24,927 nucleotides of DNA from a virus: IMG/VR virus record IMGVR_UViG_3300050821_023988, positions 1 to 24,927 of that record; one strand, written 5' to 3'. Each line of letters opens with the position of its first letter. Position 1 is the first letter of the stretch. A program made the translations under genes and the position numbers. Below the pieces are notes generated by a model that was given only the letters and a program-made list of their open reading frames with translations, was not told where the DNA came from and did not search any database. Positions 5,960 through 15,485 of the stretch are shown here, in pieces.

Positions 5960-6634
5960 CTAGCTGCTTATTCGGGTCCAAGCTATGACCCCAACCGGCA
6001 GTATATCGGTAATTGAAGCGCAAATATCGGCATCCGTAACTTGACCCTGCATCATAATGAGGTTTGCGTATTCTAGTGAACCCAGACCGTAACCTCCTCC
6101 GCCACATCCCCACCCCGACACGGACCCGATGCCCACGCTTACCGGCCGATAGGCTGTGACGAAGAATTGGAATGGCAAGTTCAGGCTTCCCCAGCCGCCT
6201 GCCGTTCCGTAAGCGATCCCACTGGCATGGCCACTGATGCTGCCGTAGCCGCCGGTATCCAAAGTGTTCGCCGGCTCGAACACCGCTGGAGGCCGACCGG
6301 TTTGATCGAGAAGTGACGAAATGACAGCCTGCCGCGTCCCTCGTTCTCGGATTAGCTCTACCAAGATACGGTGTCTATATGAGTCGTCATTTTCGCCTAC
6401 GCGCCGGTCGAGGCCAGATCCAAAGAAATCTGTTGCTATCAAGTCCAGCCAGGCGGTCTCGGCTGTAGAAATCCGTGCCTGTGTTATGACGTACTGCAAG
6501 AGCTCGTAGACCCATGCCCATGCCCATGCCACGCCATTCAGCAACGTGTCAAGTACGGGTGTTTCATCCGGGAACCAACGCAGCGGTAGGACCTGTTTCA
6601 AACGAGACAGGATGTCCTGCTGATCGCCTATCAT
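5960..6634 (-). CDS. I: Baseplate wedge protein, P2 gpI-like
   Basis: A 224-residue protein with ATG at 6634, one base after the gpJ stop. The N-terminal half ('LLNGVAWAWAWVYELLQYVITQARISTAETAWLDLIATDFFG') and 'RVGENDDSYRHRILVELIRERGTR' match the helical N-terminal signature I associate with phage tail protein I and related baseplate wedge proteins. The C-terminal half is unusually Gly/Tyr/Trp/Ser-rich (about residues 125-185) and ends with 'ADICASITDILPVGVIAWTRI'. In P2-like baseplates gpI works with gpJ to form the wedges that link the hub to the fibres. Its position directly after gpJ and before a fibre supports this. Family identity is moderate; the Gly/Tyr-rich segment may be the docking site for the next protein. 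Confidence 0.7.
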   Translation of the reverse strand: MIGDQQDILSRLKQVLPLRWFPDETPVLDTLLNGVAWAWAWVYELLQYVITQARISTAETAWLDLIATDFFGSGLDRRVGENDDSYRHRILVELIRERGTRQAVISSLLDQTGRPPAVFEPANTLDTGGYGSISGHASGIAYGTAGGWGSLNLPFQFFVTAYRPVSVGIGSVSGWGCGGGGYGLGSLEYANLIMMQGQVTDADICASITDILPVGVIAWTRISS

Positions 6635-10675: not shown

Positions 10676-10744
10676 TCTCTGCCCCGCACGACGATCATTA
10701 ATGTACTCCTAATCCTAGTGCGTCATTCATTGCGTGCGTTTTGT

Positions 10745-11597
10745 CTCTGACGGAAGCTGTTACAGCGGGGACATCGCAGCAAGGCCTGTAGCAGCGTGCG
10801 CGCCAGACAGATGCGTAGAGTGGCGATCAGGTTGGGCATGTGGCGTTGTGACCGTAGCGGCAGCACCTATGGGTCGGTAACCGGCGGGAAGGGCGGATTG
10901 CATGCAACGCCGGGCGCCGGCAGGTCCTGAGGGGGATTCGTCTCCTTCTCGGGGATCAGGAACCCGCAGGCGGCAATGCAAAGACTCGCTTGGTGGTGGA
11001 AGCCCCGTCACCCGCGTCCTTCGTGGTAGCCGAACCCGATCCCTTGCTTGAGTTCGAGATAGTCGCGTTCGATCCGCCAGCGCAGCTTGGCCTGATCGAC
11101 CATGCGCTCGAACGGGGCATCGGCTGGCAGGGTGAAGAGCAGTAGCGGTTCGGTTCGGCTTCGCCTTCCGGCCATTCGATCAGCAGTGACTCTTCGGGGG
11201 CCGGTTCGCTGCGTTTGGCATTACCATGCGCCGGACGCACTCGCAGGCTGGCAAAACGCGAGGTGAGCGACGTGTTGCTGCCGTCCCGCCACGCGATCGT
11301 CTGGCGGGCTTAGGGGACAAGTTCCATGGCCAACGCCTTGGTCGAGGCCGGTTCATGAGCCGCGTCGCGGCGCAATCGCTTGGCGAGCCGGCCACTCCGC
11401 GCTTCGCCGGGCCGCCAGACCGTCGTGCTGGGCAGGATGCCCATGACATAACGCAGCCCGAGTTCACTGATGCCGGGCCCGCAACTTGCCGTCGTTTCCA
11501 TAGGCCGGGTCGGCCGACACCACGGCTGGCGGTCCGCCGCTGGCCAGCATCTGAACTATCTGCTGCAACGCGACCTCCGGCTTGTTCTGGAATGGCC
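10745..11597 (-). pseudogene. Degenerate IS701-type transposase (3' portion)
   Basis: Reading the minus strand and switching frames recovers the C-terminal half of an IS701-like DDE transposase: 'NKPEVALQQIVQML' and 'ADPAYGNDGKLR', then after a frameshift 'GISELGLRYVMGILPSTTVW', 'LAMELVP', an in-frame stop, 'ARQTIAWRDGSN', and 'LLIEWPEGEAEPNRY'. After another frameshift come 'LRWRIERDYLELKQGIGFG' (containing the expected catalytic Glu), a stop, then 'RGFHHQASLCIAACGFLI'. At least two frameshifts and three stops make it non-functional. The 5' half is missing and the remnant abuts an IS5-type fragment near 11597. Family identification rests on the motif order; the reconstruction is mine. Confidence 0.8.
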
Positions 11598-11810
11598 ATG
11601 CGCACCGTCGTCGAGATCGTGCGCACGCTGCCGGATCAGATGGATTTCGCCCTGCCGTCGCGCCGCGGGGTCGTCGAGCGCTTCTTCGCCTGGCTCAACC
11701 GGAGCCCTCGACTGGCCAGGGACTTCGAGGGGACCATCGCCGGAACCACCTCGTTCCTCTACGTCGCCTCCGAGATGTTGCTGGCCCGCAGGTTGGCTCG
11801 CTCGGTATGA
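11598..11810 (+). pseudogene. IS5-family transposase C-terminal fragment
   Basis: The plus-strand frame ending at 11810 gives 'VVEIVRTLPDQMDFALPSRR', then 'GVVERFFAWLNRSPRLARDFEGT' and 'FLYVASEMLLARRLA' to a stop. 'VVER-x-FAWLNR-x-x-RLA-x-DFE' is the hallmark C-terminal block of IS5-type (IS1031/IS402-like) transposases and includes the expected catalytic Glu. Only about 70 codons of a normal ~260-residue protein remain; the N-terminal part and the first two catalytic Asp residues are absent. The open frame that continues upstream to 11226 is antisense to the IS701 remnant and is not part of this gene. The fragment cannot encode an active enzyme. Confidence 0.75.
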
Positions 11811-11957
11811 GATTCGGTGGCGCTGGGAGTGGCTTCGCGGTCGACGCGTTCGCGATCCAACATCGCAGGCGATGGGTGATCCCTTGTCAGGTACCGTCGT
11901 CGCGGAAGCTGAAAAATCAAGCATAGATAAGATTTTACGGGAACATCCGGGGGATCG

Positions 11958-12926
11958 TTACGTAAAGAGAGACGGCCCGCCCCACGACGGTGTAATTCGC
12001 GGATCGACAGTGATGATACCCGCGCGAGGACGGATGATCTCACGGGTCAAGTGTTGGGTCAGCCAGCGACCCAAGACGGAGCCTTCTAGGTGCAGATCGC
12101 CTCGGCCCGTGCTATTTCCGTTATCATACTCATCTTTGATGTAACTTGGATTTCTCCGCATTGTCGTTGAGTGAGATGCCGCCGTCGCCCGCGATGGGAA
12201 CTCAGTCGAAATCGTTTCTGAGAATCTGCTTAGATGCTGAGCAAAACCGCCCAATCGCCTACTACTAGGATGGCTGTAGCCGAACGGCGCGACCGCAGCG
12301 GGCAATCGACGTCTCGCCGAGCCATGTCGCTCCGACGAAGGGTGAGGTTGTCCAAAAGCGCGCATAGAACTAGAGAACTGCGATGCAAGGGCTTGCACGA
12401 TAGTTTCGATTGCTATCGGATGCCGCGCAGAAGCACGGTGGGGCTGGGGAGGCAATAGGGCGATCGCATTAACTACCCTGCTGGCTGGCTTCTCTTGTTG
12501 ACGTGGTGTTGTCCAAGTGTAATTGCTTGGCACAATGGGCGCTTTTGACGTCGCGGCTAAGACTCGGCGGGGTAGCGACAGCAGCGCCTGGAGCGGTCGC
12601 GAAACTGTAAGCTGACGGAATGACACCGAGGAGGCTCGTGAGGGATTGTCCTGGTAATCGACTTGATGCGTCCTTGACAGCGTGGTGGTCGTCATCTTCG
12701 TCGATCGCTGCGGTTGGAATGCTAGGGTGGTCGGGGCGACCCAGGGTAGTCGCCCGGCCTTGAGTCCAACTATGCGTTCAGAGATGGACCGTAATCTGGA
12801 TAGGTTGATCGATGACTTAACAATCGTCCTGTTAAGTATTTCGAGCTGGTTGCGCGTTGCGAGTATTTGCCTGGATGTGCTACTGCCGCGCGGGTGCATC
12901 GGGCCGAGTGCGGTCGTGTCGATCAC
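11958..12926 (-). CDS. Short tape-measure-like tail protein
   Basis: A 322-residue ORF in the tape-measure position, right after the tail assembly chaperone. It is open from a GTG at 12926. The N-terminal ~60 residues have a helical heptad-like stretch ('ILATRNQLEILNRTIVKSSINLSRLRSISERIV'), and the C-terminus 'RGDLHLEGSVLGRWLTQHLTREI' followed by 'DPRITPSWGG' looks like an intact tail-protein end. The middle is low-complexity and rich in Ser, Arg, Pro, Thr and His, unlike the Ala/Leu/Gln-rich helices of normal tape measures. Its length is well below the several hundred to over a thousand residues usual for myovirus tape measures. No ribosome binding site precedes GTG 12926; the proper start (ATG 12968, GGAGG) is blocked by two stops (separate entry). 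It may be a decayed or truncated gene, or a genuinely short ruler. Confidence 0.5.
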   Translation of the reverse strand: MIDTTALGPMHPRGSSTSRQILATRNQLEILNRTIVKSSINLSRLRSISERIVGLKAGRLPWVAPTTLAFQPQRSTKMTTTTLSRTHQVDYQDNPSRASSVSFRQLTVSRPLQALLSLPRRVLAATSKAPIVPSNYTWTTPRQQEKPASRVVNAIALLPPQPHRASARHPIAIETIVQALASQFSSSMRAFGQPHPSSERHGSARRRLPAAVAPFGYSHPSSRRLGGFAQHLSRFSETISTEFPSRATAASHSTTMRRNPSYIKDEYDNGNSTGRGDLHLEGSVLGRWLTQHLTREIIRPRAGIITVDPRITPSWGGPSLFT

Positions 12927-12935
12927 AGTATGGCG

Positions 12936-12968
12936 CTATTAGCGTGTTATATGATGGTTATACGTCAT
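12936..12968 (-). other. Blocked original start of the tape-measure-like gene
   Basis: An ATG at 12968-12966, with GGAGG a few bases upstream, overlaps the stop of the frameshifted chaperone ORF as ATGA, the usual coupling arrangement. It is in the same frame as the 322-residue ORF. Nine codons later come TAA (12941-12939) and TAG (12938-12936) in tandem. Reinitiation at GTG 12926, ten bases past the second stop, is the only obvious way to make the downstream protein. This looks like a loss-of-function lesion, but a sequencing indel cannot be excluded. Confidence 0.6.
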
Positions 12969-13482
12969 GCTGACTGCCTCCATCGCAACGTCCTCCAATC
13001 GAACTCTTGCCCATCCAGAATGCCAAATATGACCACGTATGCCATGCGCTCATCAGATGGCAGCGAGAATGCGACATCGAACGGCACCCCGTTTCTGACC
13101 AAATAGAGGCAATCGGTCAGCTCGGGGTGCCGAACAAGTTTCCCGCGTTTGTAACCTGCTCGCTCTCGTCGATCTCCGACAATGCCTCGATGCTTTGGGC
13201 TATTGCCTCGATTCCGCTATCACCCAACCGACCTACCAACGCCTCCACCTGAGTCTCTGAGGATGGCGGCGGAATGGGGATATCATCGATAGCAGTCACC
13301 GAGCTACAGAGGATCGCCATAGCAAGCCAAGGTTGATTGAGGGCGAGCTCTGGTCCCGCTGCCTTAAAGACTCGCAGCTTGTCCAGCGCAGTCAAAGTCC
13401 GTAGCGTGAGGCGCCGGCCCAGACTGTCTACAATGGACCGCGATTCGGTTGCTTTAGCCACAATCGTTGCTGAAGGGGTCAT
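12965..13482 (-). CDS. Tail assembly chaperone, -1 frameshift (G-T / E-E'-type) product
   Basis: Translation of the 0-frame chaperone followed by a -1 slip at 13144-13138 yields about 172 residues. The -1 extension adds 57 residues starting LVRHPELTDCLYLV and including 'NGVPFDVAFSLPSDERM', 'YVVIFGILDGQEFDWRTLRW', then a stop at 12967-12965. The '(G)VPFDVAFSLP' and 'G-x-E/K-FDW' motifs are typical of the frameshift-only domain of phage tail chaperones (lambda GT, P2 E'). In lambda-type systems the long form binds the tape measure and recruits tube subunits. The -1 ORF has no start codon of its own with a ribosome binding site near the junction. The site is supported by a GGGAAAC slippery heptamer and a strong hairpin (separate entry). 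Confidence 0.85.
13082..13144 (-). promoter_or_regulatory. Programmed -1 ribosomal frameshift signal
   Basis: On the minus strand the slippery heptamer G GGA AAC lies at 13144-13138, correctly phased with the chaperone frame. Five bases later begins a two-tier hairpin. The outer stem CGGCACCCCG (13132-13123) pairs perfectly over 10 bp with CGGGGTGCCG (13091-13082). The inner stem CTGACC (13120-13115) pairs perfectly over 6 bp with GGTCAG (13100-13095), leaving a 14-base loop. The 0-frame TGA stop (13119-13117) lies in the inner stem. Heptamer, short spacer, structure and a conserved -1 ORF together are the textbook arrangement for phage tail chaperones; the closest known heptamer is lambda's GGGAAAG. 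Confidence 0.9.
13117..13482 (-). CDS. Tail assembly chaperone, 0-frame product
   Basis: 121 residues from ATG 13482, which overlaps the tail tube stop by one base (TGATG) and is preceded by AGGAG. A TTG one codon upstream is less likely. The sequence has an N-terminal beta-rich portion ('SRSIVDSLGRRLTLRTLTALDKLRVFKAAGPE') and a helical C-terminal half ('SETQVEALVGRLGDSGIEAIAQSIEAL'), matching the layout of P2 gpE / lambda gpG-type chaperones. The gene sits between tube and tape-measure genes, the invariant position for this function. The protein stops the tape measure from aggregating and delivers tube subunits, but is not in mature virions. Most ribosomes should end here; some shift to make the longer form. 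Confidence 0.85.
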   Translation of the reverse strand: MTPSATIVAKATESRSIVDSLGRRLTLRTLTALDKLRVFKAAGPELALNQPWLAMAILCSSVTAIDDIPIPPPSSETQVEALVGRLGDSGIEAIAQSIEALSEIDESEQVTNAGNLFGTPS

Positions 13483-13916
13483 CAAATGCGACTCCTACTG
13501 ACGCCAAAAAATTCTAGCTTCTGCTTAACGCTGCTATCACCCTTCCAAATCCCTGCGTTGACCAACTTGAACGTAACGCTAGCGTACTGGTATGTTGACG
13601 TCGATCCATCCGTTTCGTTAATATACTGGTACATGGTGATCGAGCCCACAGTGCCACCATTAAAGTATGTCTGCTCGGTCGCTGCGATGAAGTCTTCGAC
13701 TGTGGAGTTGCCGCGTTCGAGCTCGAAGCTTCCCTCCCAGCCTTTGGGTAATTCGGCAGCCAACTGGGTTCCATCTAGCCGGCTAACGCGCACAGATTGA
13801 GTCAGCTGACGACTTTCAAAAGCGGTAACGTGCTCAAGGTCGACGCGCCCGCTTGGCCCCATCACAACAAGCTGAGTGTCGCGACCAACTGAGAAGGCTG
13901 TAAATGACATCGGCAT
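13482..13916 (-). CDS. Tail tube protein (FII-like)
   Basis: A 144-residue protein with ATG at 13916, six bases after the sheath stop. It is dominated by beta strands: 'MSFTAFSVGRDTQLVVMGPSGRV', 'VTAFESRQLTQSVRVSRLDG', 'GWEGSFELERGNSTVEDF', 'YASVTFKLVNAGIWKGDSSVKQKLEFFG'. The 'DG...P-x-GW-x-G-x-F-x-x-RG' block is typical of contractile-tail tube proteins. Position immediately after the sheath and before the chaperone is the standard order. Hexamers should form the inner tube through which DNA passes. The gene looks intact. Confidence 0.85.
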   Translation of the reverse strand: MPMSFTAFSVGRDTQLVVMGPSGRVDLEHVTAFESRQLTQSVRVSRLDGTQLAAELPKGWEGSFELERGNSTVEDFIAATEQTYFNGGTVGSITMYQYINETDGSTSTYQYASVTFKLVNAGIWKGDSSVKQKLEFFGVSRSRI

Positions 13917-13922
13917 ACCTCG

Positions 13923-15485
13923 TTAAGTCGCTTGTCCGGTGGGGAGGGTCTGGACGGACACCTGGACCGTCTGTCCCCCTTCCACGTTAACAATGAACTT
14001 TTCGTTGATCGATTGATATTGTACCTGCGCGTCGGACTGGACGTAGCCGAGGCCGGTCCTGCTCGGCGGATTGTTCGATGTGTCGCAGATCACAGTGAAT
14101 GGCAGACTTCCATCAGTACTGCCAAGCAGACCCTGACTAAGCATGTTTTGCAGGAACGAGAGCTGACAGGAACGAATGCTGAGGAAAAGGTTGGCGTTGA
14201 TGACTTGTCCAACGTACTGGCCCATTCCTGCGGCGAGTGTAGCAGCGATGTAGTTAGTGAGGCGTGTATAGTTGTCGCCATTGGTAGCCTGATTGGATGA
14301 CGAGTTGAAGCCTCCGCGGACGCCCCAATAGGTTCCGCCAGGTTGCGGGTTACAGATCACGTCGATTCCCGATCCGAGCAACACCGCCAGATCCGCGGCG
14401 GAGTAGGAGGTGTTTTGACCCGAGCCGGGGGTGCCAGACCTTTGGCTACCGATAACGCAATAAATTTGCTTGTTCAGGCTCGATTGTTCTGGCGACAGGT
14501 TTGCGAGCCGGCCGGCAGCAAACCCTTGTGGGGAGACTAGCCGGATAGCACCATTTACTTGATCAGACCACCACAACCAGTCGCCGAACATTAACTTTGC
14601 GGAATAGCTGTCGAGACCCGTCTGCTGCATTACAGCGACAGCATTTTGGATTGTGTCGCCGGCTGGTCCGGTCAGGATCATATAGACGCCTTCCTGGAGG
14701 CCGAACGCCGCCTGGGTTGTCCATTGATCAGGATCGTCCGAATCCGCCAGAACGGCGATACCGCACCCCTGTCCTCTCAGGGCGTACATTCCGGTGCGGG
14801 GAGGAATGTCCACGCCGATCAATTGCGCGGATGATACATTGGATCCGCCGTCGGAGCCTGGCGTGGTGGCGCCAAGCGTCGTAGCGAAAGCCGTTGGAGA
14901 CACAGTAGCACCACCAGCACTGGCGATTACAAGCTGTGACGGCCCACGCTGCGGACCTTGGCCCTGATTCACCGCTGCGGCGAGGGAGAGCCAAAACTGC
15001 GCCCCCGTGCCGCTGATATTGTCGTAGACCTCAGGCTGCAATCCCGGAAGCGCAGCTATCAATCGCCAGGTGTTTGCGCCGGAACCTGGCTGCAGCGTTA
15101 GTTTGACTTGGTTACCCAGCGAGCCCGTATAGAGTGCGGTGAACGTGGCGGTCGTTCCCGGGACAACTGTCTGCGCGGCCGTGTCGGTACCATCACTCAC
15201 TCGAACGCAACGGAAATTCTGGGCTCCCTGTTGAACCGCGGTGGCTACTTGGGTTCCCATGTCGTATTTTCTCGGAATAATCGGACCGAAGCCCTGCGCA
15301 TAATCTGCCATGGTCGCGACAATGACGGGCTGGGCGACGGGGCCCCAGGACGCAGCGCCGACAACGCCAAGCACATTGGTCGGAACCCCGTTCAGGACAA
15401 GGTTCTGAGGCGGCACTATCTGAACGTAAAGATCTGGCACCACAAGCGCCGTCGTATTGATGCTACCCTGCTGAACGATTGGCAT
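13923..15485 (-). CDS. Tail sheath protein
   Basis: A 520-residue protein with ATG at 15485 and an excellent ribosome binding site (AGGAGGAG about 9 bases upstream, inside the end of the 49-residue gene). The N-terminal arm and first domain read 'VVPDLYVQIVPPQNLVLNGVPTNVLGVVGAASWGP'. Two insertion domains are Gly/Ser/Thr-rich. The conserved C-terminal domain has 'NYTRLTNYIAATLAAGMGQYVGQVIN' and 'RSCQLSFLQNMLSQGLLG', ending 'YQSINEKFIVNVEGGQTVQVSVQT', the strand that completes the neighbour's sheet. Sheath hexamers contract to drive the tube through the envelope. This gene defines the phage as a contractile-tail (myovirus) type. No lesion is seen. Confidence 0.93.
   Translation of the reverse strand: MPIVQQGSINTTALVVPDLYVQIVPPQNLVLNGVPTNVLGVVGAASWGPVAQPVIVATMADYAQGFGPIIPRKYDMGTQVATAVQQGAQNFRCVRVSDGTDTAAQTVVPGTTATFTALYTGSLGNQVKLTLQPGSGANTWRLIAALPGLQPEVYDNISGTGAQFWLSLAAAVNQGQGPQRGPSQLVIASAGGATVSPTAFATTLGATTPGSDGGSNVSSAQLIGVDIPPRTGMYALRGQGCGIAVLADSDDPDQWTTQAAFGLQEGVYMILTGPAGDTIQNAVAVMQQTGLDSYSAKLMFGDWLWWSDQVNGAIRLVSPQGFAAGRLANLSPEQSSLNKQIYCVIGSQRSGTPGSGQNTSYSAADLAVLLGSGIDVICNPQPGGTYWGVRGGFNSSSNQATNGDNYTRLTNYIAATLAAGMGQYVGQVINANLFLSIRSCQLSFLQNMLSQGLLGSTDGSLPFTVICDTSNNPPSRTGLGYVQSDAQVQYQSINEKFIVNVEGGQTVQVSVQTLPTGQAT

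Follow-up and report, generated by a model that had tools for sequence, protein, structure and literature searches.

Lambda-type −1 frameshifting in tail chaperone genes is textbook knowledge, and many tailed phages make helper proteins in this way. The frameshift heptamer of lambda is G GGA AAG, and a gpG/gpGT molar ratio of 30:1 has been reported as crucial (PMC5009743). For Burkholderia phage KL1 gp18/gp19 the predicted site is GGGAAAC, directly before a TGA and with a predicted stem-loop (PMC3483164), and GGGAAAC is also the slip site predicted in the tail chaperone genes of Caulobacter phage Colossus (PMC3556154). The general phenomenon is well known, and the gene family considered here is a well-supported further example of it; a literature search, largely among papers open without subscription, found neither the present instance nor a family-wide description.

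The window, a stretch of viral DNA of 24,927 nucleotides (IMG/VR record IMGVR_UViG_3300050821_023988, positions 1 to 24,927), has, with high probability, a cassette for programmed −1 ribosomal frameshifting in the gene for the tail assembly chaperone of a contractile-tailed phage or prophage. The features concerned are the following.

13923-15485, minus strand: tail sheath gene, 520 aa (phrog_23, E 7e-45)
13482-13916, minus strand: upstream gene, 144 aa, candidate tail tube (phrog_12993, listed as 'unknown function'; role from its position after the sheath)
13117-13482, minus strand: 0-frame gene, 121 aa, putative short form of the tail assembly chaperone (open reading frame; phrog_20383, phrog_508, fold match)
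13138-13144, minus strand: slippery heptamer GGGAAAC, in phase as G GGA AAC (sequence, conservation in relatives)
13133-13137, minus strand: spacer TTGTT, 5 nt (sequence)
13123-13132, minus strand: outer stem, 5′ arm, nine conserved pairs and one unconserved (folding, covariation)
13115-13120, minus strand: inner stem, 5′ arm CTGACC, partly conserved (folding, pairing counts)
13117-13119, minus strand: 0-frame stop TGA, 18 nt past the heptamer, within the inner stem (sequence)
13095-13100, minus strand: inner stem, 3′ arm GGTCAG, partly conserved (folding, pairing counts)
13082-13091, minus strand: outer stem, 3′ arm, pairing with 13132-13123 over 10 bp (folding, covariation)
12968-13138, minus strand: −1 frame extension, 57 codons past the heptamer, stop at 12967-12965 (open reading frame; conserved protein)
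11958-12926, minus strand: downstream gene, 322 aa, candidate short tape measure (position; no family match)

The start codon of the 121-aa gene (ATG, 13482-13480) overlaps the TGA of the gene upstream, and the 0-frame part joined to the −1 extension gives a fusion of 172 residues. The inner stem of 6 bp becomes one of 8 bp when folded with G-U pairs counted, and encloses the 0-frame stop. On re-reading, the coordinates and counts of the original prediction (heptamer, 5-nt spacer, stems of 10 and 6 bp, 57 codons and 172 residues) proved exact.

The 0-frame protein matches phrog_20383, a family listed as 'unknown function', with E 2e-17, as do all 12 of the 12 diverse family members tested (best E 5e-22), and it has a marginal match to phrog_508, 'tail assembly chaperone' (E 0.003). 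Pfam and NCBIfam searches gave no match for the chaperone, nor did Pfam for the fusion; a PDB sequence search returned nothing meaningful, and tblastn against cultured phages with the window protein and with a relative from Aquitalea found no match. The structure predicted for the 0-frame part (pLDDT 85) finds its best solved counterpart, a weak one, in the HK97 chaperone 2OB9 (probability 0.89, E 0.08, TM 0.45), and among viral proteins several that bear the name tail assembly chaperone are high-ranking fold matches.

The sheath gene nearby is assigned by family match, and the tube and tape measure genes by position alone. Baseplate genes lie beyond the 322-aa gene and the window also encodes terminase, portal and major head protein; with the sheath, these mark it as a contractile-tailed phage or prophage. 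Its host, judged by where relatives occur, is probably one of the Acetobacteraceae or related Rhodospirillales. Close relatives have a fast-evolving gene of 315-327 aa (33-45% identity) at the same place as the 322-aa gene, which rules out its being the remains of a long tape measure gene wrecked by an insertion sequence. In most relatives of the Acetobacteraceae type the candidate tape measure has a length of only about 300-430 aa, as against about 570-640 aa for Burkholderiales, Planctomycetes and some others; should the 322-aa gene indeed encode the tape measure, the contractile tails of these phages would be very short. A stretch of about 1.26 kb (10690-11950) that separates the 322-aa gene from a 246-aa gene is absent from several close relatives. 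This DNA is about 70% identical to insertion sequence DNA of rhizobial plasmids and contains, at 11226-11810 on the plus strand, a decayed remnant of an IS5-type transposase (NCBIfam transpos_IS5_3, E 1e-6 to 2e-7); two relatives (L004 and L009) have extra DNA of their own in the same gap, so the spot may tolerate insertions.

Conservation of the heptamer among homologues, on which the original prediction had staked the frameshift reading, is borne out. When IMG/VR was scanned with the fusion protein, 541 related stretches emerged, and in the window and the best 80 of the 541 (44-86% identical), that is in 81 of 81, GGGAAAC is in phase and is followed by the second part in the −1 frame. This result is not circular, since none of the peptide patterns used in the search covers the slip site. 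One of these relatives (L072) reads GGGAAAC TGA, again with its second part in the −1 frame. Scanning of bacterial genomes added 71 loci, mainly from Acetobacteraceae and other Rhodospirillales with some from Burkholderiales, Rhizobiales and Planctomycetes, and plasmid records supplied further relatives in Rhodovastum, Aquitalea and Pantoea; most of these genome and plasmid relatives have GGGAAAC or AAAAAAC at the same position. Among the 148 sites located by script, which come from related sequences and are not all independent, the heptamer is GGGAAAC in 118, AAAAAAC in 27, and CCCTTTG, AAAAAAT and AAAAAAG in one each. AAAAAAC, AAAAAAT, AAAAAAG or CCCTTTG occurs at this position in remoter relatives, from Alpha-, Beta- and Gammaproteobacteria and Planctomycetes. 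Sites located by hand read AAAAAAC (L141), GGGAAAC (L142), GGGGGAA (L143), AAAAAAG (L150) and, as an imperfect heptamer, A AAG AAG (L151), and inspection by hand found no clear slip site at the junction in L124 and L144. In the latter, from Endobacter medicaginis (about 6360-6410), the frame of the second part is +1 with respect to that of the first, which would call for a +1 shift or reinitiation.

The 0-frame stop immediately follows the heptamer, as in GGGAAAC TGA, at 103 of the 148 located sites, and 53 of these 103 also retain an in-frame stop at +18. The +18 stop occurs by itself at 41 of the 148, and it is in the clade of the window that the stop is 18 nt past the heptamer and inside the inner stem. 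Burial of the stop in the hairpin, put forward originally as a defining feature, is therefore not one: with about 70% of located sites stopping at the heptamer itself, it is one of two states and is not needed for the mechanism. There is some chance, though a rather small one, that the position of the stop (+0 or +18) is itself selected and tunes the frameshift ratio, in which case release-factor recognition might compete with slippage, or a stop within the stem might alter refolding. Were that so, the family would be a natural comparison set for relating stop position to frameshift efficiency.

The hairpin of the window has a folding energy of −32.7 kcal/mol (z = −5.4, with none of 200 shuffles equally good). 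Of the folds that follow the window's 104 XXXYYYZ heptamers it is the strongest, the next best reaching −22.8 kcal/mol, and it is among the top two of 4972 window segments by fold strength. Downstream of the heptamers at the 148 sites the median is −28.8 kcal/mol, as against −16 to −18 in control stretches. The outer stem begins 5-6 nt past the heptamer and shows covariation. Nine of its base pairs are 99.7% paired in the close set and 96.8% paired in 62 diverse sequences, where 13 double-sided changes, with C-G to A-U, G-C and U-A among them, compare with 1.0 expected by shuffling, and where every slid register pairs far below the true one. In five remote relatives (L083, L148, L149, L155 and L156) the outer stem is incompletely formed in this register; four of the five were omitted from the set of 62 or could not be aligned there, so that the 96.8% applies to relatives in which the stem is kept. 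Of the outer pairs the tenth, unpaired in 31 of 67 sequences, is not conserved, and the inner stem is 86.8% paired, with one pair broken in 24 of 67. Of the two stems in which covariation was originally to be looked for, the outer shows it clearly and the inner is only partly kept; likewise the two-tier hairpin is real in the window and, rather than a feature of the family, is a trait of its clade. The conserved stimulator is the 9-bp outer stem. An Rfam search found no match. Sequences resembling a Shine-Dalgarno motif, as 4-mers, occur in only 45 of the 148 upstream stretches and are not conserved, which sets aside an upstream stimulator like that of dnaX.

Codon usage in 69 non-redundant close relatives gives a further view of the signal. 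Over the slip site and stem arms the codons for alanine (GCG, 67 of 67), glycine (GGA, 69 of 69) and asparagine (AAC, 69 of 69) are fixed, and those for proline (CCC, 60 of 65), glycine (GGG, 65 of 69) and valine (GTG, 69 of 69) are nearly or wholly so, the expected same-codon rate being about 0.3 for four-fold residues and 0.66 for asparagine. At four-fold sites in the heptamer and stem the rate is 0.86-1.00 and it falls to 0.34 at the next proline codon; synonymous choice is thus nearly frozen across the heptamer and outer-stem arms and at background level from the very next codons. Since in most relatives the 0 frame is already over at the heptamer, the constraint on the stem arms acts at the level of RNA rather than through a second protein. 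Because constraint is at background right past the outer stem, this codon-level test reveals no conserved downstream partner for a pseudoknot.

The protein encoded by the second frame is conserved in 36 relatives with a mean column identity of 72%, it starts at the heptamer junction, and the fusion is 169-180 residues long across the close set. The second part has, by itself, a low-confidence predicted structure with no fold match, and no PHROG matches it, the profile of phrog_20383 covering the 0-frame part only. That the −1 frame has no start of its own, as originally claimed, is upheld: in the window there is no ATG, GTG or TTG in that frame upstream of the heptamer, and many relatives lack the near-cognate TTG and GTG that it has at 17 and 32 nt beyond the stop of the 0 frame. 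With no conserved start in the open −1 frame, the short form and the −1 extended form would share one start. No in-frame fusion of the two parts was seen among the located relatives, and a second part clearly behind an ATG of its own was found in one alone, which leaves the frameshift reading intact. In that planctomycete locus (L139, about 6300-6320) a stop-start overlap (ATGA) within GGAATGACC replaces the slip site, and the second part may there form a gene of its own. The expectation that gene callers miss the −1 frame holds in four of five annotated plasmid prophages, in which the extension is unannotated and falls in the gap before the next CDS; it fails in Pantoea sp. Lij88 (L087, 3040-3186), where the annotation gives the extension a small hypothetical CDS to itself.

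From anatomy, conservation and covariation, programmed −1 frameshifting at this site is very likely. The majority of ribosomes would halt at the TGA to give the 121-residue protein, and a minority would be held up at the hairpin while their tRNAs sit on GGA and AAC, slip one base back onto GGG and AAA, unfold the hairpin and read 57 more codons to give the 172-residue protein. By analogy with lambda gpG and gpGT, the short form may coat the tape measure protein, and recruitment of tail tube subunits may fall to the rarer long form; the lambda case likewise leads us to infer that the frameshift would set the ratio of the two chaperone forms.

Other readings of the same facts have to be weighed. 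That conservation merely reflects protein constraint and shared ancestry, with the hairpin a by-product of coding, draws on the good conservation, as protein, of the RHP and NGVPF encoded by the stem arms and on the relatedness of the sequences, which makes the counts not independent; yet protein constraint would not hold four-fold codons so far above the expected rate and release them at the next proline, nor produce compensatory changes such as C-G to A-U and G-C, and the codon-level data have largely refuted this reading, which is now scarcely credible. Separate production of the second part by reinitiation or an internal start, leaving the heptamer and hairpin to serve something else, could make use of the TTG and GTG beyond the stop and recalls the ATGA overlap of the planctomycete and the separate CDS annotated in Pantoea sp. 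Lij88. Those starts, however, are absent in many relatives in which the heptamer is invariant, the codon freeze lies exactly over heptamer and stem, and the conserved second-frame protein opens at the heptamer junction, so that such a route is very improbable.

Somewhat less remote, and still improbable, is a cassette that is real and whose products have another role in tail assembly or in regulation rather than acting as tape-measure chaperones. The families named give it an opening, as phrog_20383 is of 'unknown function', the chaperone match is marginal and neither Pfam nor NCBIfam has a match. Against it are the location of the gene between the sheath and tube genes and the candidate tape measure, the frameshift architecture itself and the HK97 chaperone as best solved-structure match. 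The reading as a frameshift cassette in a tail assembly chaperone gene would give a likely function to phrog_20383 and supplies the −1 extension where annotation had overlooked it, as in the four plasmid prophages. With its roughly 150 located sites, two main heptamers and two stop positions, the family is also a comparative set for frameshift signals.

Among known systems, the HK97 chaperone 2OB9 shares 16% identity with the 0-frame part, and that relationship is suggestive only. As with lambda gpG and gpGT (PMC5009743), there would be a short form and a rarer −1 extended form, and the X XXY YYZ heptamer opens with GGGAAA; the lambda gene follows the tail tube gene and precedes the tape measure, a likeness that depends here on the candidate tube and tape measure. 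Unlike that of lambda, the heptamer of the window ends in C and is followed by a strong conserved hairpin, the tail is contractile with a sheath, and there is no detectable sequence similarity. KL1 and Colossus share with the window a predicted GGGAAAC slip site in tail chaperone genes; KL1, in contrast, is a siphophage whose extended form is much longer (264 aa), and the stop of the window is 18 nt further on.
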